A DNA stretch of 64,000 nt from Actinomadura sp. NBRC 104412 (lineage in GTDB: Bacteria > Actinomycetota > Actinomycetes > Streptosporangiales > Streptosporangiaceae): positions 124,001-188,000 of the forward strand of contig NZ_BSTM01000012.1 in the NCBI RefSeq assembly GCF_030269515.1, read 5' to 3'. Numbering within the stretch: position 1 is the first letter of the stretch; each line of letters opens with the position of its first letter. The translations under genes and the position numbers were made by a program. The notes below the pieces were generated by a model. The model saw only the letters and a list, made by a program, of their open reading frames with translations. It did not search any database and was not told the origin of the DNA. Of the stretch, positions 14,444-26,916 are shown piece after piece.

Positions 14444-17400
14444 ATGGAGTTCCGCATCCTCGGCCCGCTGGAGATGTGGGCGGGCGAGCGCCGCCGGCCC
14501 CTGGGGTACGCGCGGGAACGGCGGCTCCTGGCGATCCTCCTGATGTCACCCGGCAAGCCGGTCGCGACGGAGGCGCTGATCCAGCGGGTCTGGGACGGAG
14601 ACCCGCCCGACCGCGCCAGGGACCGGCTCTACCCGCACATGACCCGCCTCCGGGGCCGCTTGGCCGACCTGGGCGACGTGCGGCTGGAGAGCCGTTCCGG
14701 CGGCTACGTCCTGGAGGTCGACCGGTCGCGGATCGACTACCACCTCTTCCGCGACCTGCGGAGCCAGGCCCGCTCCATGGCAGAGACCGGCGACCGGGAG
14801 TACGCGCTGCGGCTGCTGCGCGACGCCACCGCCCTGTGGCGTGGCGAACCGCTCGACGGGGTGGACGGGACCTGGGCCGAGCAGCGCCGCCAGAGCATCC
14901 GGGACGAGCTGCTCGCCGCCACCCGGGAACGCCTGGAGCTCGAACTGGAGCTGGAGAACCGTCCCGACCTCACCACCGAGCTGAACGACCTGCTCGTCCA
15001 GTTCCCGCACGACGAGAAGCTCGCCGAGCTGCTGATGCTCGCCCTGCACCGGACGGGCCGGTCCGCCGAGGCGCTGCGGGCCTACGACCGGTTCCGCCGG
15101 CTGCTGGACGAGTCCATCGGCACCATGCCGGGACAGGAGCTACGGGAGCTGCACCGGCGGATCCTCAACGACGACCCCGCGCTCATGGCGCCGCCGCGCC
15201 CGCCCGAACGGCGGTCACCGCCCAGCGACCTGCCGCCCGACACCCACACCTTCACCGGACGCGAGGCCGAGTTCGGCGAGCTGATGCGCCTCGCCGCGGA
15301 GAGGTCGGACGCCGTCACCGTCGTGGCCATCTCCGGCATGCCGGGCGTGGGGAAGACGACGCTGGCCGTCCGGCTGGCCCGGCGCCTCGCCCCCGAGCAC
15401 CCGGACGGCCAGATCTTCCTCCATCTGCGCGCGCACGATCCCGGCCAGGAGCCGATGGAGCCCATCGCCGCGCTCGACCGGCTGCTGCGTTCCCTGCGCG
15501 TGCCGCAACACCTGATACCGAACGATCTCGACGGCAGGTCCGCGCTGTGGCGCACCGAGACCTCGCGGCGCCGGCTGCTGCTGGTGCTGGACGACGCGCT
15601 GGACACCGACCAGGTCAGGCCGCTGCTGCCCGGCGCGCCCGGATGCCTGGTCGTGGTCACCGGCCGACGCCGGCTGGTCGGCCTGGACGCCGTCCGGCCG
15701 CTCACGCTGCACCCGCTGCCCCCTGAGGACTCCGCGCTTCTCCTGGCCAGGGTCGCCGGGCCGAGGGTGACACCGGGCGCCCCCGGCGTCGACACGGTCA
15801 CCAGGCTGTGCGGTCACCTGCCGCTCGCGTTGCAGATGGTCGGCCTTCGCCTGAGGCACCGCGAGAGCTGGACCGCCGTGGACCTGGCGGAGTCGCTCGG
15901 CGAAGGGCGCAGGCTGGAGCGGCTGCGGGCCGAGAACCGTGAGGTCGCGGCGGCGTTCCGGCTGTCGGTCGAGGGACTGGACGCCGCCGCGCGGCAGGCG
16001 TTCCTGCTGCTGGGGCTGTATCCCGGCGCCGAGGTGACGGCGGACGCCCTGGCCGTGATGTTGGGCGGCGAACGATCCGGGGCCGAGGCGTGCCTGGAGC
16101 TCCTGCACGACCACAGTCTGATCATCGAGCCGAGCCCCGGCCGCTACCGGTTCCACGACCTTCTGCGCGAGTACGCGCGGGACCTCGCCGGACGGGAACC
16201 GTCCCTCGACCGGGACGTGGCTTTGGACCGGTTGATCGACCACTGCCTGGCCACCGCCGACCGTGCCGACCGGATCCTGTTCCCGTGGTCCTCGCGCCCT
16301 CCGGTCGAGGTCCGTTCACCCGGCATGGACGGATTCTCCCTGGACAGCGAGGAGGACGCGCGGTCCTGGTTCGAGGCCGAACTGGAGAACCTGATCGGCG
16401 TGGCGCGCTTCGCCGCCGACGAGGGCCGCCCCCGGCGTGCGGGCCTGCTGGCCAGGGCACTGGAGCGCTTCCTGGAGGACACCGGGCGCTGGTCGGACGC
16501 CGTGCGGCTGCACACCACCGCGGTGGAGGCATGGCGGCGGGTCGGCGATCGGAGATCCCTGGCCCGCGCCCTGCTGGACCTGGGCCACGTCCGCTGGAGG
16601 ACGGGCCGTTACGAGGACGCCCTGGCGGCGGCGACGGAGGCCCTGCACACCTCCCGCGCGGTCGGCGACGACGCCCTGGCCGCCGAGTCCCTGGACCTGC
16701 ACGGCAGGATTCACTACACCCGCTCGGAGTTCGACGTCGCCGTCGGGTACTACGAGCAGGCGCTCGTCCTCCGGCGGGAGGCGGGCGACCGTTCGGGCGA
16801 GGCCCATCTCCTCAGCCACCTGGGCATCGTGCTCTACCATCTCGGCCGCTATCCCGAGGCGATGGAGCGCATGGCCCTGTCCCTGACGCTGACCGAGGAG
16901 GCGGGCGACGTCCGCGGCCGTCAGATGGCCCTCAACAACGCCGCGGAGATCGAGTACAGGCTCGGGCTGTACGACGTGGCGCTCCGGCACTACGAGCAGG
17001 TCGCGGAGATCGGCGAGCTCAGCCGCCAGCACCAGGCCGTCTGGTGCAACAACATCGCGACCATCTACAGCAGGACGCAACGCCCGGCCGAGGCCATCAC
17101 CCAGTATCGCCGAGCGATCGCTATTTATACCGAAATTGGCGACAGGCGGGGTGAAACCGACTCGCTCAACGGGATCGGCGCCTGCTATGCCCAGATGGGA
17201 CGGGACGGCGAGGCGTTCATCCACCATCAGAAAGCCTTGCGGCTCGCCCGGGAGATCTCCGAGAAGTACGAGCAGAGCTGGGCGCTGCGGGGCATCGGTG
17301 AGGTCCATCATCGGGCCGGACGGCACGGTCAGGCGCTGAGCCTTTTCGACGAGGCGCTGGTAATTGCACGGTCAATAGGTGACACGTTCCAAGAGGCGCG

Positions 17401-17563
17401 CGTACTGGAAAGCATGGGTGAGGCCATCGCCCGCCTCCACGGCCCCGCCGAGGCCGAGGCGGCCTTCGGACAGGCCCTTGAGCTGTACGAATCACTCGGC
17501 GTCCCCGAGGCGGAGGCGCTACGTCAACGCCTCGCCGACCCGCCGGACGCGGCGGGATCGTGA
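14444..17563 (+). CDS. second SARP-STAND-TPR regulator (AfsR-like), divergent from the triad
   Basis: 1039 residues. Winged helix about 1-90 (MEFRILGPLEMW, RLLAILLMSPGKPV), activation domain about 95-245, NB-ARC ATPase about 270-560 with P-loop SGMPGVGKTTLA and Walker B LLLVLDDALDTDQ, then at least six TPR-like repeats with the GxxxxAxxxYxxAL pattern to residue about 1030. GGGGGAG lies 5 nt before the ATG. Position and divergence make it the natural candidate activator of the triad at 11426-14192, and possibly of the peptide gene at 17709. It differs from the SARP at 5911 in domain spacing and is not a recent duplicate. Confidence 0.9.
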   Translation: MEFRILGPLEMWAGERRRPLGYARERRLLAILLMSPGKPVATEALIQRVWDGDPPDRARDRLYPHMTRLRGRLADLGDVRLESRSGGYVLEVDRSRIDYHLFRDLRSQARSMAETGDREYALRLLRDATALWRGEPLDGVDGTWAEQRRQSIRDELLAATRERLELELELENRPDLTTELNDLLVQFPHDEKLAELLMLALHRTGRSAEALRAYDRFRRLLDESIGTMPGQELRELHRRILNDDPALMAPPRPPERRSPPSDLPPDTHTFTGREAEFGELMRLAAERSDAVTVVAISGMPGVGKTTLAVRLARRLAPEHPDGQIFLHLRAHDPGQEPMEPIAALDRLLRSLRVPQHLIPNDLDGRSALWRTETSRRRLLLVLDDALDTDQVRPLLPGAPGCLVVVTGRRRLVGLDAVRPLTLHPLPPEDSALLLARVAGPRVTPGAPGVDTVTRLCGHLPLALQMVGLRLRHRESWTAVDLAESLGEGRRLERLRAENREVAAAFRLSVEGLDAAARQAFLLLGLYPGAEVTADALAVMLGGERSGAEACLELLHDHSLIIEPSPGRYRFHDLLREYARDLAGREPSLDRDVALDRLIDHCLATADRADRILFPWSSRPPVEVRSPGMDGFSLDSEEDARSWFEAELENLIGVARFAADEGRPRRAGLLARALERFLEDTGRWSDAVRLHTTAVEAWRRVGDRRSLARALLDLGHVRWRTGRYEDALAAATEALHTSRAVGDDALAAESLDLHGRIHYTRSEFDVAVGYYEQALVLRREAGDRSGEAHLLSHLGIVLYHLGRYPEAMERMALSLTLTEEAGDVRGRQMALNNAAEIEYRLGLYDVALRHYEQVAEIGELSRQHQAVWCNNIATIYSRTQRPAEAITQYRRAIAIYTEIGDRRGETDSLNGIGACYAQMGRDGEAFIHHQKALRLAREISEKYEQSWALRGIGEVHHRAGRHGQALSLFDEALVIARSIGDTFQEARVLESMGEAIARLHGPAEAEAAFGQALELYESLGVPEAEALRQRLADPPDAAGS

Positions 17564-18542: not shown

Positions 18543-19052
18543 ATGCGGACGACCGAGAGGACACAGGCCACGCTGCGGCGGCTGGGCGAGCCGGGGGACC
18601 TCGGCTGGGTGGTCATGGCCCACGGTGAGCTCTACGCCACCGAGTACGGATGGAACACCGACTTCGAGGCCCTGGTGGGGCGGATCGTCGCCGACTACGC
18701 CGGCGAAGGGGGCGACGAGCGGCGGGCCGCCTGGATCGCCGAACTCGACGGCCGCCGGGTGGGGTGTGTCTTCTGCGTGCCCGCCGGCGAGGAGGACGGG
18801 AAGACGGCCAAGCTCCGCCTCCTGCTGGTCGACCCGTCCGCCCGCGGCAACGGCATCGGCTCGCGCCTGGTCGAAGAGTGCCTGAACTACGCCAAGGAGG
18901 CCGGCTACCGGGACATCACCCTGTGGACGAATGACGTCCTGGTCTCGGCCCGCCGCATCTACCAGGCGCACGGCTTCCAGCTCGTGGACGAGGAGCCCCA
19001 CCACAGCTTCGGCAAGGACCTGGTGGGCCAGAACTGGTCCCGTCCCCTCTGA
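18543..19052 (+). CDS. GNAT family N-acetyltransferase
   Basis: 169 residues. Acetyl-CoA-binding motif A is visible as LRLLLVDPSARGNGIGSRLVE (core RGNGIGSRL at about 102-110), preceded by AWIAELDGRRVGCVF and followed by the motif B strand YRDITLWTND and ARRIYQAHGF. It carries an extra N-terminal segment with MAHGELYATEYGW, as in the MarR-GNAT subgroup but without the MarR domain. GGAGGAGG lies 7 nt upstream of the ATG. Probably controlled by the divergent TetR protein. Substrate unknown. Confidence 0.88.
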   Translation: MRTTERTQATLRRLGEPGDLGWVVMAHGELYATEYGWNTDFEALVGRIVADYAGEGGDERRAAWIAELDGRRVGCVFCVPAGEEDGKTAKLRLLLVDPSARGNGIGSRLVEECLNYAKEAGYRDITLWTNDVLVSARRIYQAHGFQLVDEEPHHSFGKDLVGQNWSRPL

Positions 19053-19186: not shown

Positions 19187-20557
19187 ATGAGGACGGGAAA
19201 GAGACCGGGGACCGAGAGCGGCGGCCCGCTCGGTCGCGTGATCCGGCGCACCGAAAGCGATCATTGGAGCTTTCTGTTCGCGCAGATCGCCGTCCATTCG
19301 TTCATCGTGCTGCTGGTCACCGGGGCGTTCCTGACGTTCTTCTACGAACCCGACCTGTCGCGGACCACCTATGACGGCCCGTACGGCTCGCTGCGCGGGG
19401 TGGAGGTCAGCAGGGCCTACGACTCCACCCTGGAGATCGGCTTCGAGGTGCGCGGCGGGATGCTCATGCGGCAGATCCACCACTGGGCCGCGCTGATCTT
19501 CCCGGCGGCCATCTGCTGCCAGCTTCTGCGGATGTTCTTCACCGGGGCGTTCCGCCGCCCGCGCCACCTGAACTGGCTGGTGTGGGTCGGCCTGCTGATC
19601 CTGGCGCTGGCCGCGGGCGTGACCGGGACCGTCCTGCCCGACGACATGCTGTCGGGCGGCAGCCTCGGCCTCATCCAGGGCGTCACCCAGTCCATCCCGG
19701 TCATCGGCACGGGCGTGGCGTACCTGTTGTTCGGCTCCGACATTCCCGGGGACGACATCATCCCGCGCATGTACTGGGCGCACCTCCTGCCGATCCCCGT
19801 GGCCATCGCGGGGCTGTGCCTGCTGCGCCGCAGGCTGGTCGGGCGCTTCGGGCACACCCGCTTCCAGGACTCACGCCCCGCCGGCCGGCGCCTCGGGCGT
19901 CTTCGTTCGGCGGCGATCCTGCTGTACGTGTGCGGGGTGCTGGCGCTGCTGGGCACCGTCGCCCAGATCAACCCGATCTGGCTGTACGGGCCCTTCGAGC
20001 CCGGGGCGATCACCTCGGGGGCGGTCCCCGGCTGGTACATGGGGTTCCTCGACGGGGCGATACGGATCATGCCGGGCTGGGAGGTCACCGTCGCGGGACA
20101 TCCCGTCACCTTCGCGGTGCTGGTGCCCGCTCTCATCGTCCCCGGCGCGTTCTTCACCGTCCTGGCCGCCTACCCGTGGATCGAACGGCGGTTCACCGGC
20201 GACCATCGGTTGCACCACCTGCTGGACCGGCCGCGCGACCACGCCGTCCGCACCGGGCTGGGCGCCGCGGGGATCGCCTTCTACGGGCTGCTGTGGGCCG
20301 CCGCGGCCAACGACCAGATCGCCCACACCTTCCACCTGTCGCTGTTCGCCGTGACCTGGTTCTTCCGTGTCGCGGTCCTCGCCGGGCCGGTGCTGGCGTT
20401 CGTGCTCACCCGCTGGATCTGCCTCGCGCTCACCGCCCGCGAGTGGGAGGAGAGCCGGCACGGCTACGAGACCGGCCGGATCGTGATGAGCGCGGACGGC
20501 GCGTACGGCGAGATTCACGCCCCGGTCGAGGCCCCGCGTGAGCTCGCGCGCAACTGA
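19187..20557 (+). CDS. orphan QcrB-like cytochrome b, lacking the second-heme ligands
   Basis: 456 residues with about eight to nine membrane spans and clear QcrB landmarks: RQIHHWAAL (helix B), PDDMLSG, SIPVIG, IIPRMYWAH (helix D) and a Qo-like PGWYMGFLDGAIR. The family needs two His per heme, 14 residues apart on helices B and D. H98 and H199 are kept, but the partners are Q112 and L213/R214, so the high-potential heme bH cannot bind normally. The Qo-site acidic residue of PEWY/PDWY is Gly282. No qcrA or qcrC is adjacent. It is a divergent paralogue, probably a one-heme electron carrier or a non-respiratory membrane protein. The ATG follows AAGGGGGG. Confidence 0.85.
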   Translation: MRTGKRPGTESGGPLGRVIRRTESDHWSFLFAQIAVHSFIVLLVTGAFLTFFYEPDLSRTTYDGPYGSLRGVEVSRAYDSTLEIGFEVRGGMLMRQIHHWAALIFPAAICCQLLRMFFTGAFRRPRHLNWLVWVGLLILALAAGVTGTVLPDDMLSGGSLGLIQGVTQSIPVIGTGVAYLLFGSDIPGDDIIPRMYWAHLLPIPVAIAGLCLLRRRLVGRFGHTRFQDSRPAGRRLGRLRSAAILLYVCGVLALLGTVAQINPIWLYGPFEPGAITSGAVPGWYMGFLDGAIRIMPGWEVTVAGHPVTFAVLVPALIVPGAFFTVLAAYPWIERRFTGDHRLHHLLDRPRDHAVRTGLGAAGIAFYGLLWAAAANDQIAHTFHLSLFAVTWFFRVAVLAGPVLAFVLTRWICLALTAREWEESRHGYETGRIVMSADGAYGEIHAPVEAPRELARN

Positions 20558-20651: not shown

Positions 20652-21701
20652 TTACTTGAAGGCGGGCATCAGCTCGTCGTGGATCAGGCGGAGCTGGCCG
20701 TCGACGTCCGGGACGCCGCTGAGGTCGCGGCCGGTGAACTGCTTGACCAGGCCCGCGTCCGTGATGGCGCAGATCATGTGGTTGACGCCGGTGGGCGCGA
20801 TATCGCTCTCGATCTTGGCGCGGACCTCCTCGGGGGTGCCCGCGAGGGAGAGCTTCTCGGTGATCTCCGGGGTGGTCAGCTCGATGGCCTTGGCCAGGTC
20901 GCCGGCGCCGATGGCCTCGATGATCGGGGTCATGTCCGCCGGGTTCACGCCGTTGCGCTCAAGCTGCTCGGCCGGCATCGCCGAGGCGTACAGGCCGACC
21001 ATGCTCCGGGCCGCCTCCTTGGCCGCGGCCGAGTCCGGTCCGACGGCGAAGACCACCCAGGCGCCGATGTCGAGCGACCGCCAGTCCTTTCCCGCGCGCT
21101 CGGCGCCGGCCTTGAAGTGCTCGACCGCGTACTCGTACGCGTTGCGCGAGTAGCTGAGCGCGTGGTGGACGCCGTCCGACAGCTCACCGGCCGCCTCGAA
21201 CGACTTCGGCCCGCGCATCGCGCCGATCTTGACGGGCAGGTGCTCCTGGACGGGACGGGCGAAGGTGAACAGGCCCTCGTAGGAGTAGAACTCGCCGTCG
21301 CGGGTGATGGCGCCCTCGTCCAGCAGGGTGCGGACGACCGCGGTGGCCTCCTTCACCCGGGTGAGCGGCTTGGTCTTCGCCCAGTCGATCTTGTACTGGG
21401 CCAGCACCCCGAAGTTGCCGGAGCCCAGGACCACCTCGGCGCGGCCGCCGGTGAGCTCGTCCAGCGTGGCGGCGGCCTGCGCGATCAGTGAGGGCTCGCG
21501 CAGGGTGACCGCCGACACCGACGGGCCGAGACGGATCTGGGAGGTGTTCGCGGCGGCCGCCGCGAACAGCAGCCACAGGTCCTTGTGCCACGGCTCGTCG
21601 GCCGCGTACACCGCGTAGAACCCGAGCTCGTCGGCGAGCTTGATGGAGGCCAGCGAGTCCGCGACGGGGTAGTCGGGAAGCATGGCATAGCTGAACTTCA
21701 C
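20652..21701 (-). CDS. LLM-class flavin/F420-dependent oxidoreductase
   Basis: 349 residues from GTG 21701, preceded by AAGGAG nine bases upstream. A luciferase-like TIM barrel is indicated by MKFSYAMLPDYPVADSL with LADELGFYAVYAADEPW, by IRLGPSVSAVTLREP, by LDELTGGRAEVVLGSGN and by LPVKIGAMRGPKSFE. Many such actinobacterial proteins use coenzyme F420 to move hydride to or from alcohols, imines or sugar phosphates. This chain resembles the methylene-H4MPT reductase/FGD branch, but its substrate cannot be assigned. It stands alone, closed by a terminator downstream. Confidence 0.88.
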   Translation of the reverse strand: MKFSYAMLPDYPVADSLASIKLADELGFYAVYAADEPWHKDLWLLFAAAAANTSQIRLGPSVSAVTLREPSLIAQAAATLDELTGGRAEVVLGSGNFGVLAQYKIDWAKTKPLTRVKEATAVVRTLLDEGAITRDGEFYSYEGLFTFARPVQEHLPVKIGAMRGPKSFEAAGELSDGVHHALSYSRNAYEYAVEHFKAGAERAGKDWRSLDIGAWVVFAVGPDSAAAKEAARSMVGLYASAMPAEQLERNGVNPADMTPIIEAIGAGDLAKAIELTTPEITEKLSLAGTPEEVRAKIESDIAPTGVNHMICAITDAGLVKQFTGRDLSGVPDVDGQLRLIHDELMPAFK

Positions 21702-21798
21702 GAGAAACGTCTCCTTGTGGTGTGTGCGCCTTCGCACACGGTTGGGGGATGTGGGAGATCGGATGTGCTGCGGTCTGGCTGGGCGGCCCCTTCCTGCT

Positions 21799-22995
21799 TT
21801 ATCCCTTGATTTCAGCCCAGGCCTGAGTCCAGCGTGAGTAGTCCACGCAGTTGTCGCCACGGGAATCGCCACATGCGGTCACGGGCGTCTTCCAGAAGGC
21901 GATCTTCTTGTAGAAGGCGGCGTCGCCCACCTTGTACTCAGCGCAGAACCCCTTCTCGGTGTACCGGCACGCCTTGGGGTTCGCGGCGGCCTGGCCGAAC
22001 CACTGGGCGACCTGGGCCTGCACCCTCGGCGTGGTGATCCAGTTCATCCACCGGTACATGCAGTTCGGATGGCGTGCCCGGGACGAGATCATCCACGTGT
22101 CGGACCAGCCGGTGGCGCCCTCGGCGGGCAGCACCGTCTCGACGGGCGCGCCCTCGGCCTTGGCCAGCGAGGCGATCACCTGCCAGGTGGTGCCGGCATG
22201 GCTGTCCCCGATCTTGAAGGACTGCACCGAGTCGGCGTAGCTGTGCCAGTACTGCCCGATGTTGGTGCGCATCTGGCGCAGCAGGTCGACGGCCGCGTCG
22301 AACTGCTCCTCGGTCAGCTCGTACGGGTCGGTGATCTTGAGATCGGGGCGGTGCGTCCTGAGGTACAGCGCGGCGTCGGCGATGTAGATCGGCGAGTCGT
22401 AGGCCGTGATGTTCCCCGCCGCGGGGGAGTTCCGCTCGAACACGACGTCCCACGACGTCGGCGGGCGCGGCAGCTTGTCCTTGCGGTACATCAGGTAGTT
22501 GGCGCCGTAACCGTGCGGGACGCCGTACATCTGACCGCCGACGGAGTTGTACGGCTGCTCCTTCAGGAAGTCGGCGATGTCGGGATAGTTGCTGAGCAGG
22601 GAGGTGTTCACCGGCGCCACGTCACCGCCGTAGATGAGGCGGACGCTGGCGTCGCCGGACGCCGACACGCCGTCGTAGCGGCCCGTCTTCATCAGCGCCA
22701 CCATCGAGTCGGAGGTGTCGGCCACCTTGGTCGTCACCTTGCAGCCGGTGGCCCGCTCGAACGGGGTCACCCAGTCGACCTTCGGGTCGGTGCTGCCGTC
22801 CTCGGCGTACCCCGTCCAGGCGACCAGGTTCAGCCGCCCCTCGGTGGCGCCGATGACCTGCTGCGCCGGGATCTGCGGCAGCGAGGTGCGGGCGGCGTTG
22901 GAGGAGTCGCTGCATCCGGCGGCCAGGGCCGCGGTGACCGCGGCCGCCGCGGCCACCACCGGCAGCCGCCGGCGCCCGCCGGGAGGTCCGTCCAT
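21799..22995 (-). CDS. extracellular solute-binding lipoprotein, spermidine/putrescine (PotD)-like
   Basis: 398 residues from ATG 22995; ATG 23022 would add nine. A lipoprotein signal peptide ends in the lipobox LAAGC, so the mature protein would be anchored outside the membrane. The body matches class-1 solute-binding proteins of the polyamine type: VTPFERATGCKV, SASGDASVRLIYGG, YGVPHGYGANYLMYRKD, and DTWMISSRA followed by YRWMNWI. No permease or ATPase gene is nearby, so it must work with a transporter encoded elsewhere or act as a sensor component. It diverges from the conservon kinase gene across 172 bp. Confidence 0.87.
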   Translation of the reverse strand: MDGPPGGRRRLPVVAAAAAVTAALAAGCSDSSNAARTSLPQIPAQQVIGATEGRLNLVAWTGYAEDGSTDPKVDWVTPFERATGCKVTTKVADTSDSMVALMKTGRYDGVSASGDASVRLIYGGDVAPVNTSLLSNYPDIADFLKEQPYNSVGGQMYGVPHGYGANYLMYRKDKLPRPPTSWDVVFERNSPAAGNITAYDSPIYIADAALYLRTHRPDLKITDPYELTEEQFDAAVDLLRQMRTNIGQYWHSYADSVQSFKIGDSHAGTTWQVIASLAKAEGAPVETVLPAEGATGWSDTWMISSRARHPNCMYRWMNWITTPRVQAQVAQWFGQAAANPKACRYTEKGFCAEYKVGDAAFYKKIAFWKTPVTACGDSRGDNCVDYSRWTQAWAEIKG

Positions 22996-23167
22996 GGTCA
23001 CTCTCTGCCTGTTGAAGATCACGCTCGCGGATTGTAGGCCCGTGGATACCGCTCATGCCCAGCGAATCCGAATGATTCAGATCTCTCTCCACAACCCGCC
23101 CAAATGATCAGTTGGAGCTGTACCCTCTCTGCGATCAGTGACCGTCGGCTAACGGAGAGCGGCCTCA

Positions 23168-25885
23168 GTGCGATCTAAGGACCGTCGAATGGGTTCACGC
23201 ATCAGTCATCGGCGTCCTCGACCGGGAACCGGGCGGTTCAGGACGGTACGTTTCAAGGTCACGGCGCTGGTCCTGGTGTCCCTGGTGTCGCTGTCGGTGC
23301 TGTGGGCGTTCGCGGCCAGCGTGACCTTGGGAGAGGGCCTCAACCTGCGGAACGTCGAGACGGTCCAGGACCATTTCGAGTACCCGTCGGGCGCCCTCGG
23401 CAGCTCCCTTCAGGCCGAACGCCGCGCGACCATGGTCTACCTGGGCAGCAGAACGCCCGGGGACCTGGCGGTGATGGAGGCGGCGCGGCTGGTCACCGAC
23501 CGGCAGGCCGATCTGTTCCGGCGGCTGGCCAGCGACAAGGACGCGCTGGACGACGCGCCCGCCCAGACCCGCCAGCTCGCCGGCACCATCATCAGCGGGC
23601 TGAACGGGCTGGGTGCCAAGCGGACGGCCATCGACGGCGGGCGCACGTCCCGCACACAGGCGTTCACCGACTACAGCGGGCTGATCGGCAACATCGGAAC
23701 CCTCCAGGGGACGCTGTCCACGCTGAGCAACGCCGAGGTCGCCAAGGACTCCCGGACGCTGGTCGCGCTGGCCCGTGCCCGTGAGGCGCTGTCGCAGGAG
23801 GACGCGCTGCTCGCGGGCGTCCTGGCGTCCGGCCGCTTCACCCGGGCCGAGCACGCCGAGTTCGTCAAGCTGGTCGGCACGCAGCGGTCGCTCTACAACA
23901 TCGCCGCGCCGGAGCTGCGCCCGGGTGACCAGGCGTACTACCGCCGGGTGACCACGACCGAGGAGTACAACCGGCTCCGCACGCTGGAGAACCAGTTCGT
24001 CAACGCCCCGGCGCTCCCCAGGGCCGGGGACGACACCCCGGTGCTGTGGAAGACGACGCTGGAGTCCAACCTCACCCGGCTGCGCGGCCTGGAGCTGTCG
24101 CTGGCGGCCGCCTCCGAGTCGCGCGCCCGCCCCATCTCCGACGCCATCATCCTGCGGGTCGCCGCGGCCGGCGTGCTGGGCCTGTTCGCGGTCGTGCTGT
24201 CGGTGACGCTGGCGACCTGGGCCGCGCGCTCGGTCATCCGCGACCTGAACGCGCTGAAGCGGGAGGCGCTCGACCTGGCCAGCTCCCGGCTGCCGAACGT
24301 CATCCAGCGGCTGCGCCGGGGAGAGGATGTGGACGTCGCCGCCGAGGCGCCGCCGCTGTCGTTCGCCACCGAGGAGATCGACCAGGTCGGCCAGGCGTTC
24401 AACGCCGCGCGCCGCACCGCGATCGCCGGAGCGGTCGACGAGGCGGGGCTGCGCCGCGGCATCAGCGACGTGTTCGTCAACCTGGCCCGCCGCAGCCAGA
24501 CGCTGCTGCACCGGCAGCTCAAGCTGCTGGACGCCATGGAGCGCCGGATCACCGAGCCGGACGACCTGGAGGACCTGTTCCGCATCGACCACCTGGCCAC
24601 CCGCATGCGCCGCCACGCGGAGGGCCTCATCATCCTCTCGGGCCAGGCGCCGGGACGCGGCTGGCGCAACCCGGTCGCGGTCATCGACGTGGCCCGCGCC
24701 GCCGCCTCCGAGGTGGAGGACTACACCAGGGTCACGGTCGCGCCCATGTCGCAGGCGGCCATCGCGGGCGTCGCCGTCGCCGACGTCATCCACCTGCTGG
24801 CCGAGCTGATCGAGAACGCGTGCTCGTTCTCGCCGCCGCACACCACCGTGCAGGTGACCGGGCAGGCCGTCGCGCGCGGCTTCACCCTGGAGATCGAGGA
24901 CCGCGGGCTGAGCATGGACGAGGCGAGCCTGGCCGCGGCGAACGAGCGGCTGGCCAACCCGCCGGAGTTCGACCTGTCCGACAGCGCCCAGCTCGGCCTG
25001 TTCGTGGTGGGACGGCTGGCGCGGCGGCACGGGATCCGGGTGACGCTGCGCACCTCGCCGTTCGGCGGGATGAGCGCCGTGGTGCTGATCCCCGACGACA
25101 TCGTCGTGCACGGCGACGGCGAGGGCTACGAGCTGGACGGGGCCGAGGCGCGGCTGGCGCTCACCCGGCGCAGCGAGGACGCGTTGGTTCCGGTCGGGGT
25201 GGTCCGCGGCGGCCAGGGTGGCTACGGTGGCGCGGACAGGAACGCGCTGCCCGCCGACTCCGGCGGGTCGGTGCTGCGCCTGCACTCCAACGAACCGGAA
25301 CCTCCTCGCGGTGCCCGGCACCGCAGGAAGCAGGGGGAAGCGCCGCCACCCATGCCCGATCCGTACGCTCCCGGCAGTCCCACCGACAGCACCGGCCCCC
25401 TCCCCGCCCACACGACGGGGCCGCTCCCGCCCGTCCAGCACGACACCAACGCGCCGCCGTCATCGCCTCTGCCGATGAGCCCGCGTTCCTCCACACCGCC
25501 CACCGGGACGCCCACGCAAGGCACGCCGAGGCCGGGTGCGTACGGGCCGGAACCCGTGCCGGAGGCGGCGCCGTCCCGTCCCGTGCAGGAACTGCGCCCG
25601 GAACGTGAACGCAGACCGGGAGGCGGCGGCACCGGGCCGCTGCGGCGGCCGCCGGGAGGCGCCGGGCGCGGCCGCGGAGGGCGGCCCGACCTGCCCAGGC
25701 GGGTGCGGCAGGCCAACCTCGCCCCGCAGTTGCGCGAGGAGCCGTCCGGCGAGCCCGTCGCCGAGCAGCCGCCGCCGCGCGCCGAGCGCTCTCCGGAGGA
25801 GCTGCGCTCGATGATGTCCTCCATCCAGCGCGGCACGCGGCGCGGTCGCACCGAGTCGACGATCGAGTTCGACGAGGGGTCGTGA
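23168..25885 (+). CDS. conservon sensor histidine kinase with nitrate/nitrite-sensing-type domain (CvnA-like)
   Basis: 905 residues from GTG 23168 (GGAGAG upstream; ATG 23189 also possible). A basic start is followed by membrane span one (about 29-50), an extracytoplasmic all-helical NIT-type domain, span two (about 325-350), a HAMP-like linker and a DHp-like helix pair with LLHRQLKLLDAMERR. A HATPase_c domain follows, with N-box ELIENACSFSPPHT and LGLFVVGRLARRHG. About 230 residues of Pro/Gly/Arg-rich tail close it. It heads a conservon that passes signals to a small GTPase. A DUF742 gene follows 7 bp later. Confidence 0.9.
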   Translation: MRSKDRRMGSRISHRRPRPGTGRFRTVRFKVTALVLVSLVSLSVLWAFAASVTLGEGLNLRNVETVQDHFEYPSGALGSSLQAERRATMVYLGSRTPGDLAVMEAARLVTDRQADLFRRLASDKDALDDAPAQTRQLAGTIISGLNGLGAKRTAIDGGRTSRTQAFTDYSGLIGNIGTLQGTLSTLSNAEVAKDSRTLVALARAREALSQEDALLAGVLASGRFTRAEHAEFVKLVGTQRSLYNIAAPELRPGDQAYYRRVTTTEEYNRLRTLENQFVNAPALPRAGDDTPVLWKTTLESNLTRLRGLELSLAAASESRARPISDAIILRVAAAGVLGLFAVVLSVTLATWAARSVIRDLNALKREALDLASSRLPNVIQRLRRGEDVDVAAEAPPLSFATEEIDQVGQAFNAARRTAIAGAVDEAGLRRGISDVFVNLARRSQTLLHRQLKLLDAMERRITEPDDLEDLFRIDHLATRMRRHAEGLIILSGQAPGRGWRNPVAVIDVARAAASEVEDYTRVTVAPMSQAAIAGVAVADVIHLLAELIENACSFSPPHTTVQVTGQAVARGFTLEIEDRGLSMDEASLAAANERLANPPEFDLSDSAQLGLFVVGRLARRHGIRVTLRTSPFGGMSAVVLIPDDIVVHGDGEGYELDGAEARLALTRRSEDALVPVGVVRGGQGGYGGADRNALPADSGGSVLRLHSNEPEPPRGARHRRKQGEAPPPMPDPYAPGSPTDSTGPLPAHTTGPLPPVQHDTNAPPSSPLPMSPRSSTPPTGTPTQGTPRPGAYGPEPVPEAAPSRPVQELRPERERRPGGGGTGPLRRPPGGAGRGRGGRPDLPRRVRQANLAPQLREEPSGEPVAEQPPPRAERSPEELRSMMSSIQRGTRRGRTESTIEFDEGS

Positions 25886-25892
25886 CGGGGCG

Positions 25893-26273
25893 ATGAGCGG
25901 CCCAGGAAACGAATGGCTCGACGAGGAGGCCGGGCCCCTCGTCCGCTCGTACGCGCTGACCCGCGGCCGGGCCAGGCCCAGGACCGACGGCGAGGGTTTC
26001 GAGATGATCGCGATCATCGCCACGGTGGCCACCCCGGCCGGCGCCTCTCCCGACATCGGGCCCGAGCACCTGTCGATCATCGATCTGTGCATGCGGCCCC
26101 ACTCCGTGGCGGAGGTGTCCGCCCGGCTGGGGCTGCCGCTGGTGGTGGTGCGGGTGCTGCTGGGCGACCTGCTCGCCCACCGGCTGATCGCGGTACGGCG
26201 CCCGCAACAGGAAAGCCCCACTGTGACCGAACATCTGCTCAGGGAAGTGCTCCATGGACTCGAGGCGCTCTGA
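25893..26273 (+). CDS. DUF742 protein of the conservon (CvnC-like)
   Basis: 126 residues: LVRSYALTRGRARP at the start, FEMIAIIATV, LSIIDLCMRPHSVAEVSARL (core MRPHSVAEVSARL) and LGDLLAHRLIAV, all DUF742 hallmarks. The second half looks like a winged helix. In conservons the DUF742 protein interacts with the GTPase and the kinase. It sits directly between kinase and GTPase genes; its last 20 bp overlap the GTPase start. The roadblock/LC7 gene that normally precedes it is absent. Confidence 0.9.
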   Translation: MSGPGNEWLDEEAGPLVRSYALTRGRARPRTDGEGFEMIAIIATVATPAGASPDIGPEHLSIIDLCMRPHSVAEVSARLGLPLVVVRVLLGDLLAHRLIAVRRPQQESPTVTEHLLREVLHGLEAL

Positions 26274-26916
26274 CGCCCCCTCCGACCACGCGTCCGAGGG
26301 GGCGGGCGGTCCATCAGCCGGTGGCGGCGCGGCGGCCATGCCGCTCGCGGTCAAGATCCTGGTCGCCGGGGGCTTCGGGGTCGGCAAGACCACCTTCGTC
26401 GGCGCGGTCAGCGAGATCCGCCCGTTGCAGACCGAGGAGGTGCTGACCGAACAGAGCGTCGGGGTGGACGACATCTCCGGGGTGGACCGCAAAACGACCA
26501 CGACCGTCGCCATGGACTTCGGCCGCATCACGATCAGGGAGGGGCTGATCCTCTACCTGTTCGGCACGCCCGGCCAGGACCGGTTCTGGTTCATGTGGGA
26601 CGAGCTGTCGCATGGCGCGCTCGGGGCGATCGTCCTGGCCGACACCCGCAGGCTGGCCGACTGCTTCCCCGCCGTGGACTACTTCGAGAACCGCGGGCTG
26701 CCGTTCATCATCGGCGTGAACTGCTTCGAGGACGGCTACGAGTACACCGCGACGGAGATCCGGGAGGCGCTGGACCTGAACCCGGCGACCCCGGTGGTGC
26801 TGTGCGACGCGCGCCGCCGCGAGTCCGCGAAGGCCGTGCTGACGTCCCTGGTCAAGTATCTGATCTCGGTGAACGACGAGGAGCGGGCGGCGCAGACCGC
26901 GGGCCGGTACGGCTGA
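26254..26916 (+). CDS. small Ras-like GTPase of the conservon (CvnD-like)
   Basis: 220 residues. P-loop AGGFGVGKTTFVG, a switch I region with KTTTTVAMDFGRI, switch II FGTPGQDRFWFMW, and NCFEDG in place of the NKxD guanine-specificity motif, as in this prokaryotic MglA-like family. An extra 28-residue Ser/Gly-rich leader precedes MPLAVKILV, so ATG 26338 is an alternative start. It is translated from within the DUF742 gene (20-bp overlap). It should act as the nucleotide switch of the conservon at the inner membrane face. No cytochrome P450 gene (CvnE) follows. Confidence 0.92.
   Translation: MDSRRSDAPSDHASEGAGGPSAGGGAAAMPLAVKILVAGGFGVGKTTFVGAVSEIRPLQTEEVLTEQSVGVDDISGVDRKTTTTVAMDFGRITIREGLILYLFGTPGQDRFWFMWDELSHGALGAIVLADTRRLADCFPAVDYFENRGLPFIIGVNCFEDGYEYTATEIREALDLNPATPVVLCDARRRESAKAVLTSLVKYLISVNDEERAAQTAGRYG

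Follow-up and report, generated by a model that had tools for sequence, protein, structure and literature searches.

When a cytochrome b gene lies away from the other qcr genes and appears to have lost the ligands of one of its hemes, the question is whether its product can still take part in quinol oxidation and, if not, what it might do instead. That two b hemes span the membrane is regarded as fundamental to cytochromes b of the bc type. The gene considered here is located in a 64,000-nucleotide stretch of contig NZ_BSTM01000012.1 (hereafter the window) from the soil actinobacterium Actinomadura sp. NBRC 104412. The initial annotation had described its product as a paralogue which lacks both heme bH ligands and the acidic residue of the Qo site, and which is not a working Q-cycle subunit and may be a one-heme membrane electron carrier.

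The product was assigned to the cytochrome b family by Pfam and NCBIfam. It matched the actinobacterial QcrB family NF050120 over its full length, scoring 534.9 bits vs. a cut-off of 500 (residues 17–449), and the best solved chain was QcrB of Corynebacterium glutamicum (383 bits, residues 15–447), the identity to solved actinobacterial QcrB chains amounting to 43–45%. Distant matches to cytochrome b6 (PetB) and to ExtP-type proteins stayed far below the respective cut-offs (104 of 325 bits and 111 of 290 bits). While an earlier structure model was weak (pLDDT 64.9), the AlphaFold2 model used here, built with 41 related sequences, reached a mean pLDDT of 82.5. It showed the multi-helix cytochrome b fold with Z-scores of 43–45 against the six best solved mycobacterial or corynebacterial QcrB chains, e.g., 44.0 for 7q21_B (rmsd 3.3 over 432 residues) and 45.1 for 9gy6_B (rmsd 2.4 over 424 residues). 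The gene product is a whole cytochrome b and no fragment. Its C-terminal tail belongs to a short type: after the HGxExG motif, a median of 30 residues follows in the 75-member clade defined below (11–63; 73 of 75 measurable), compared to 95 residues in other QcrBs (61–128 apart from a single value of 650; measurable in 72 of 77).

The coordinates of the gene, its diagnostic residues and its surroundings are listed in Table 1. The column counts compare the 75 clade members, the window protein included, with 77 other QcrBs. The latter were gathered because they resembled the query or NF050120, and a few of them are nearly identical to one another; the seed alignment consisted of the most similar rows, picked when the ligand pattern was already known.

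Table 1. Features of the bH-less cytochrome b gene and its surroundings (window positions; residue counts for the clade and for other QcrBs)
Feature	Position	Strand	Details
SARP/AfsR-like regulator	14444–17563		BTAD, NB-ARC and TPR repeats; 1039 aa
GNAT acetyltransferase, upstream neighbour	18543–19052	+	Pfam; no recurrent neighbour in relatives
bH-less QcrB paralogue	19187–20557	+	456 aa; ORF open and complete
Ala32, helix A, bH side	19280–19282	+	clade A 52, G 21, C 1, gap 1; others G 77/77
Gly46, helix A, bL side, kept	19322–19324	+	clade 74/75, one gap; others 77/77
His98, helix B, heme bL ligand, kept	19478–19480	+	clade 75/75; others 77/77
Gln112, helix-B heme bH ligand position	19520–19522	+	clade Q 64, H 10, L 1; others H 77/77
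Trp133, helix C, bH-side Gly position, 14 residues before Gly147	19583–19585	+	clade W 75/75; others G 77/77
Gly147, helix C, bL side, kept	19625–19627	+	clade 75/75; others 77/77
Thr148, in place of the Qo hydrogen-bonding Tyr (C. glutamicum Tyr153)	19628–19630	+	clade N 44, T 17, G 12, H 2; others Y 77/77
His199, helix D, heme bL ligand, kept	19781–19783	+	clade 75/75; others 77/77
Arg214, helix-D heme bH ligand position	19826–19828	+	clade R 72, G 2, L 1; others H 77/77
Qo motif Pro281-Gly282-Trp283-Tyr284 (PGWY)	20027–20038	+	P, W, Y 75/75; position 282 clade D 58, G 17, others D 77/77
Luciferase-like (F420-type) oxidoreductase, downstream, convergent	20652–21872	-	Pfam/NCBIfam; not recurring; alternative called start 21701
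Extracellular solute-binding protein	21799–23022	-	
Consecutive genes for a nitrate-sensing (NIT) histidine-kinase-like, a DUF742 and an ATP-binding protein	23276–26916		arrangement as in conservon-type operons

The bis-His pair for heme bL is present as His98 and His199, which are kept throughout the clade, as the initial annotation had read for the window protein. The corresponding pair for heme bH is absent. Gln112 was correctly recognized as standing at the lost helix-B ligand, but the helix-D ligand had been placed at Leu213, 14 residues after His199. Leu is indeed found there; however, the spacing of the helix-D histidines in actinobacterial QcrBs is 15, as given by ungapped alignments to the Corynebacterium and Mycobacterium chains and by the His present in this column in all 77 other QcrBs, so the lost ligand aligns with Arg214. 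Cytochrome b6 has the same helix-D spacing of 15. In a large subgroup of the clade, the alignments show a helix D that is one residue shorter, with Arg at +14. Both lost ligands belong to heme bH. Their columns are occupied by His in every other QcrB; in the clade, the histidines occur together in none of the 75 members and singly in 10 of them. No alternative histidine turned up at the bH positions, either in the alignments to solved chains or in the columns of the 75 and 77 sequences.

Besides the ligands, glycines of cytochrome b pack against the hemes and give them room. Both types of position are altered on the bH side, where each of the helices A to D carries an exchange: Ala32 and Trp133 stand in place of Gly, and Gln112 and Arg214 in place of His. 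Trp133, which we assigned to the heme bH site by alignment and by its 14-residue spacing to Gly147, is found in every member, including the 10 with a helix-B His, and is thus the strongest sign of a closed bH cavity. From these residues, the heme bH site looks filled and abolished and the bL pocket intact. The helix-B His of the 10 members does speak against a strictly bL-only clade, as a heme held by one ligand would be possible there if the ligands are considered alone.

The Qo motif reads PGWY in the window protein, and the loss of the Qo acid that had been claimed is real there, but it is no clade trait: only 17 of 75 members share it, and the other 58 keep Asp. What is lost in the entire clade is the Qo tyrosine, whose equivalent, Tyr153 of C. 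glutamicum QcrB, forms a hydrogen bond to an analogue of the Qo transition state and shows high conservation among actinobacteria (PMC8795186). On the Qi side, the column of the ligand Glu38 contains 55 Glu, 19 Gln and one gap, and Lys253 is replaced in 75 of 75 members (two Arg, 73 other residues), the latter column being less sure because it lies beside a gapped loop. The outer-side residues Asp302, Arg306 and Asp387 of C. glutamicum, which are part of the Rieske proton exit path (PMC8795186), correspond to Asp289, Arg293 and Asp376 and are present in all 75 members. Judged by these positions, the outer half of the protein is kept with altered Qo chemistry and the inner half is not kept. The missing bH ligands, the invariant Trp133, the lost Qo tyrosine and, with less certainty, the replaced Qi lysine lend good support to the earlier statement that this is not a working Q-cycle subunit.

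The changes proved to be common to related species, with Gln112, Arg214 and Trp133 prevailing and Gly282 confined to the smaller group mentioned above. Across the order, 71 of 345 genomes, representing 10 of 70 genera, harbour the 75 clade members; by named records, Actinomadura, Nonomuraea, Actinoallomurus, Planotetraspora and Streptosporangium are among the carriers. When 341 genomes of the family were searched with a profile of 27 members, 70 of them gave a total of 74 matches of at least 683 bits (counted by hand), and no other match exceeded 598 bits. Among the 394 genomes of a class-wide sample that included genomes of the window's family, no clade member was found outside that family; one member is known from another family of the same order (G065). 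Within the genus, carriers are patchy (13 of 65 genomes), and the nearest relative of the window protein, 76% identical, belongs to another genus (G329, locus L222). This patchy spread would fit transfer as well as many losses.

In a tree built without the trait columns from 110 of the 152 rows (thinned at 90% identity), the clade formed one side of a branch with an SH-aLRT value of 100. Trp133 needs one change on this tree, position 214 three and position 112 six, which fits a single early change to Trp133 and a helix-B His that was lost or regained several times. The dN/dS ratios after NG86, a rough method in high-G+C genes, were 0.150–0.432 in all 34 non-overlapping pairs from the clade and 0.118–0.507 for 15 pairs of other QcrBs. 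These ratios indicate purifying selection on the clade genes. The protein is kept by related species as a distinct family and is no degenerate singleton. Because the same changes recur in a clade of 75 members, chance or a sequencing error is unlikely, and we rejected both sequencing error and pseudogene status on the basis of the clade and the dN/dS ratios.

As stated in the initial annotation, neither qcrA nor qcrC occurs among the window genes; the host's qcrA and qcrC turned up on contig C3 alone. In a search of nine genomes, including seven carriers, every genome contained one qcrA locus and one qcrC locus, with qcrC matching as two pieces of one locus in three of the nine. On the basis of these nine genomes, a dedicated Rieske or cytochrome c subunit was rejected. 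The gene is not the host's sole qcrB, a point on which the earlier reading depended: one further copy directly follows a Rieske gene (L003), and another is an orphan (L002; G000:C32:38981-40300). The latter carries the ligands of both hemes and a PDWY motif and lies near genes that, as judged by eye, are TetR-like and sensor-kinase-like.

We also searched all 75 loci for an operon partner by synteny, using gene calls from a codon-usage script instead of annotation for the relatives. Apart from scattered families in at most 10 loci, no gene recurred except one for an NDH-2-like flavoprotein. At locus L190 (G229), the 10-kb stretch around the bH-less gene contains a second QcrB-like ORF, which scores 468 bits against the window protein, and tandem QcrB-like pairs about 200 bases apart, outside the clade by score, are present at G239:C1:9641266-9644087 and G220:C1:2818555-2821385 as possible dedicated pairs. 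Loci L166 and L173 share a gene family directly upstream of the bH-less gene; the L166 copy is a Dyp-type peroxidase (Pfam) with what by eye is a twin-arginine-like leader.

In 15 of the 75 loci, the NDH-2-like gene lies immediately downstream of the bH-less one in the same orientation, with gaps of -3 to 84 bases (median 27); no such gene adjoins in the remaining 60, the window included. Its product matched Pyr_redox_2 and solved NDH-2-type chains (best E-value 1.5e-35). As called, it has 338–369 aa and stops where NDH-2 chains go on, leaving it without a membrane tail, and the host's own homologue on contig C21, which is 52% identical, does go on at that point. The host gene (L229; G000:C21) adjoins an ORF that by eye resembles cytochrome bd subunit II. 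The flanking genes differ among the 15 loci. All 15 proteins are 79–99% identical to the copy at L162, so they possibly represent one lineage. A sixteenth NDH-2-like protein, only 47% identical to the L162 copy, is encoded at L214, two genes away and on the other strand.

From these data, we consider it likely that the clade consists of one-heme (bL-only) cytochromes b which are unable to run a Q cycle. Read from the sequence, the folded protein would lack heme bH and contain heme bL, i.e., a neofunctionalised QcrB paralogue would hold a single heme on the outer side of the membrane. Electrons on bL could then not cross to the inner quinone site, so the bH-less protein would not run a Q cycle by itself. 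The one-heme part of the initial proposal thus agrees with the intact bL pocket, while the carrier role is one of several possibilities.

If the protein has one heme, our tentative preference is that it serves as an outer-side redox subunit which joins the cell's single bcc complex together with the single-copy QcrA and QcrC. It may either replace QcrB or form half of a mixed dimer there, and its presence would lower or redirect quinol oxidation. We favour this reading because qcrA and qcrC are single-copy and because of a result from Streptomyces. The location of the gene can be likened to that of QcrB2 and QcrB3 of Streptomyces coelicolor (SCO7120 and SCO7236), two additional qcrB genes outside the qcr-cta cluster, and the orphan QcrB3, whose identity to QcrB is 55%, has been detected together with the bcc-aa3 supercomplex (PMC7931247). 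However, the absence of the long QcrB tail could argue against membership in the complex, the exit-path residues may owe their conservation to structural constraints, and most loci have no recurring partner gene.

Nearly as likely as a bcc subunit, if doubtful in itself, is a stand-alone one-heme, quinol-linked membrane protein, which in one lineage would be served by the adjacent, soluble NDH-2-like flavoprotein that may dock to it. The missing QcrB tail and the NDH-2-like neighbour favour such a separate protein, and the case is strengthened by the conserved order and strand of the gene pair within differing flanks and by the early end of the flavoprotein. Yet the pair is absent from most loci, its 15 copies may go back to one lineage, and a flavin on the inner side would presumably sit at a long distance from bL, which no bH would bridge.

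The mixed dimer as such, the bolder half of our preferred reading, we regard as unlikely. It would contain the bH-less protein and a canonical QcrB, and thus two bL hemes and one bH; electrons from the bH-less side would cross via a bL-bL bridge. Such a complex would be nature's version of the half-knockout bc1 made by engineering. Millisecond-scale bL-bL transfer between monomers has been demonstrated by means of fusions of b subunits with the mutations H212N or G158W (PMC4330944), and both the single-copy qcrA and qcrC loci of the nine genomes and the invariant bL pocket speak for a mixed dimer. The lost Qo tyrosine, by which the Qo site of the bH-less half is probably impaired, and again the missing tail count against it. 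We attach low probability, too, to the wider speculation that nature has built an asymmetric respiratory device from the bL-only protein, canonical QcrB, QcrA and QcrC, with one Qi site and an obligatory bL-bL bridge, or that, where the anchor-less NDH-2 gene is present, the two genes form a membrane redox module that moves no electrons across the membrane.

A heme-based or quinone-binding sensor, or an assembly factor without a role in electron transfer, appears improbable: this would agree with the loss of Qo and Qi chemistry residues from a conserved fold and outer side, but a scaffold would not need the full set of bL ligands and glycines that is kept. A decaying gene copy can practically be dismissed, because despite the lost catalytic residues and an in-frame TGA within the matched stretch of one of the 74 profile matches (G221), the other 73 are free of internal stops, dN/dS stays below 0.44 in 34 of 34 pairs and Trp133 is invariant.

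Compared to actinobacterial QcrB of the bcc-aa3 supercomplex (NF050120; PDB 7q21, 6adq, 6hwh and 7e1v), the bH-less protein shares the core fold and core length, the bL ligands and bL-side glycines, the Pro-x-Trp-Tyr of the Qo site and the outer-side exit-path residues. It differs in lacking the bH ligands and equivalents of Tyr153 and Lys253, in the Trp at the helix-C bH-side glycine, in its short C-terminus and in the position of its gene outside a qcr cluster. Another counterpart is the engineered bH knockout of Rhodobacter capsulatus bc1 (H212N; PMC4330944), likewise a cytochrome b that keeps bL without bH. That variant is a laboratory construct with one mutation, whereas the bH side of all four helices is changed here, naturally and clade-wide. 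According to the same work, laboratory bH knockouts keep bL and lose antimycin-sensitive turnover, and no complex could be obtained for the symmetric fusion knockout (PMC4330944). A His-to-Lys exchange at bH can still hold a heme (PMC4807273); in the present clade, by contrast, both bH ligands and the cavity are changed.

Our search of the open-access literature found no description of a natural bc-type cytochrome b without heme bH. A lasting natural family with bL only would allow testing what bL does in the absence of bH, and whether bL-bL transfer is put to natural use. The family also bears on the question of why genomes with a single qcrA and a single qcrC carry several qcrB genes. Finally, it contains a warning for annotation, as such proteins are automatically called bc1 subunits, and the window protein even passes a curated cut-off.
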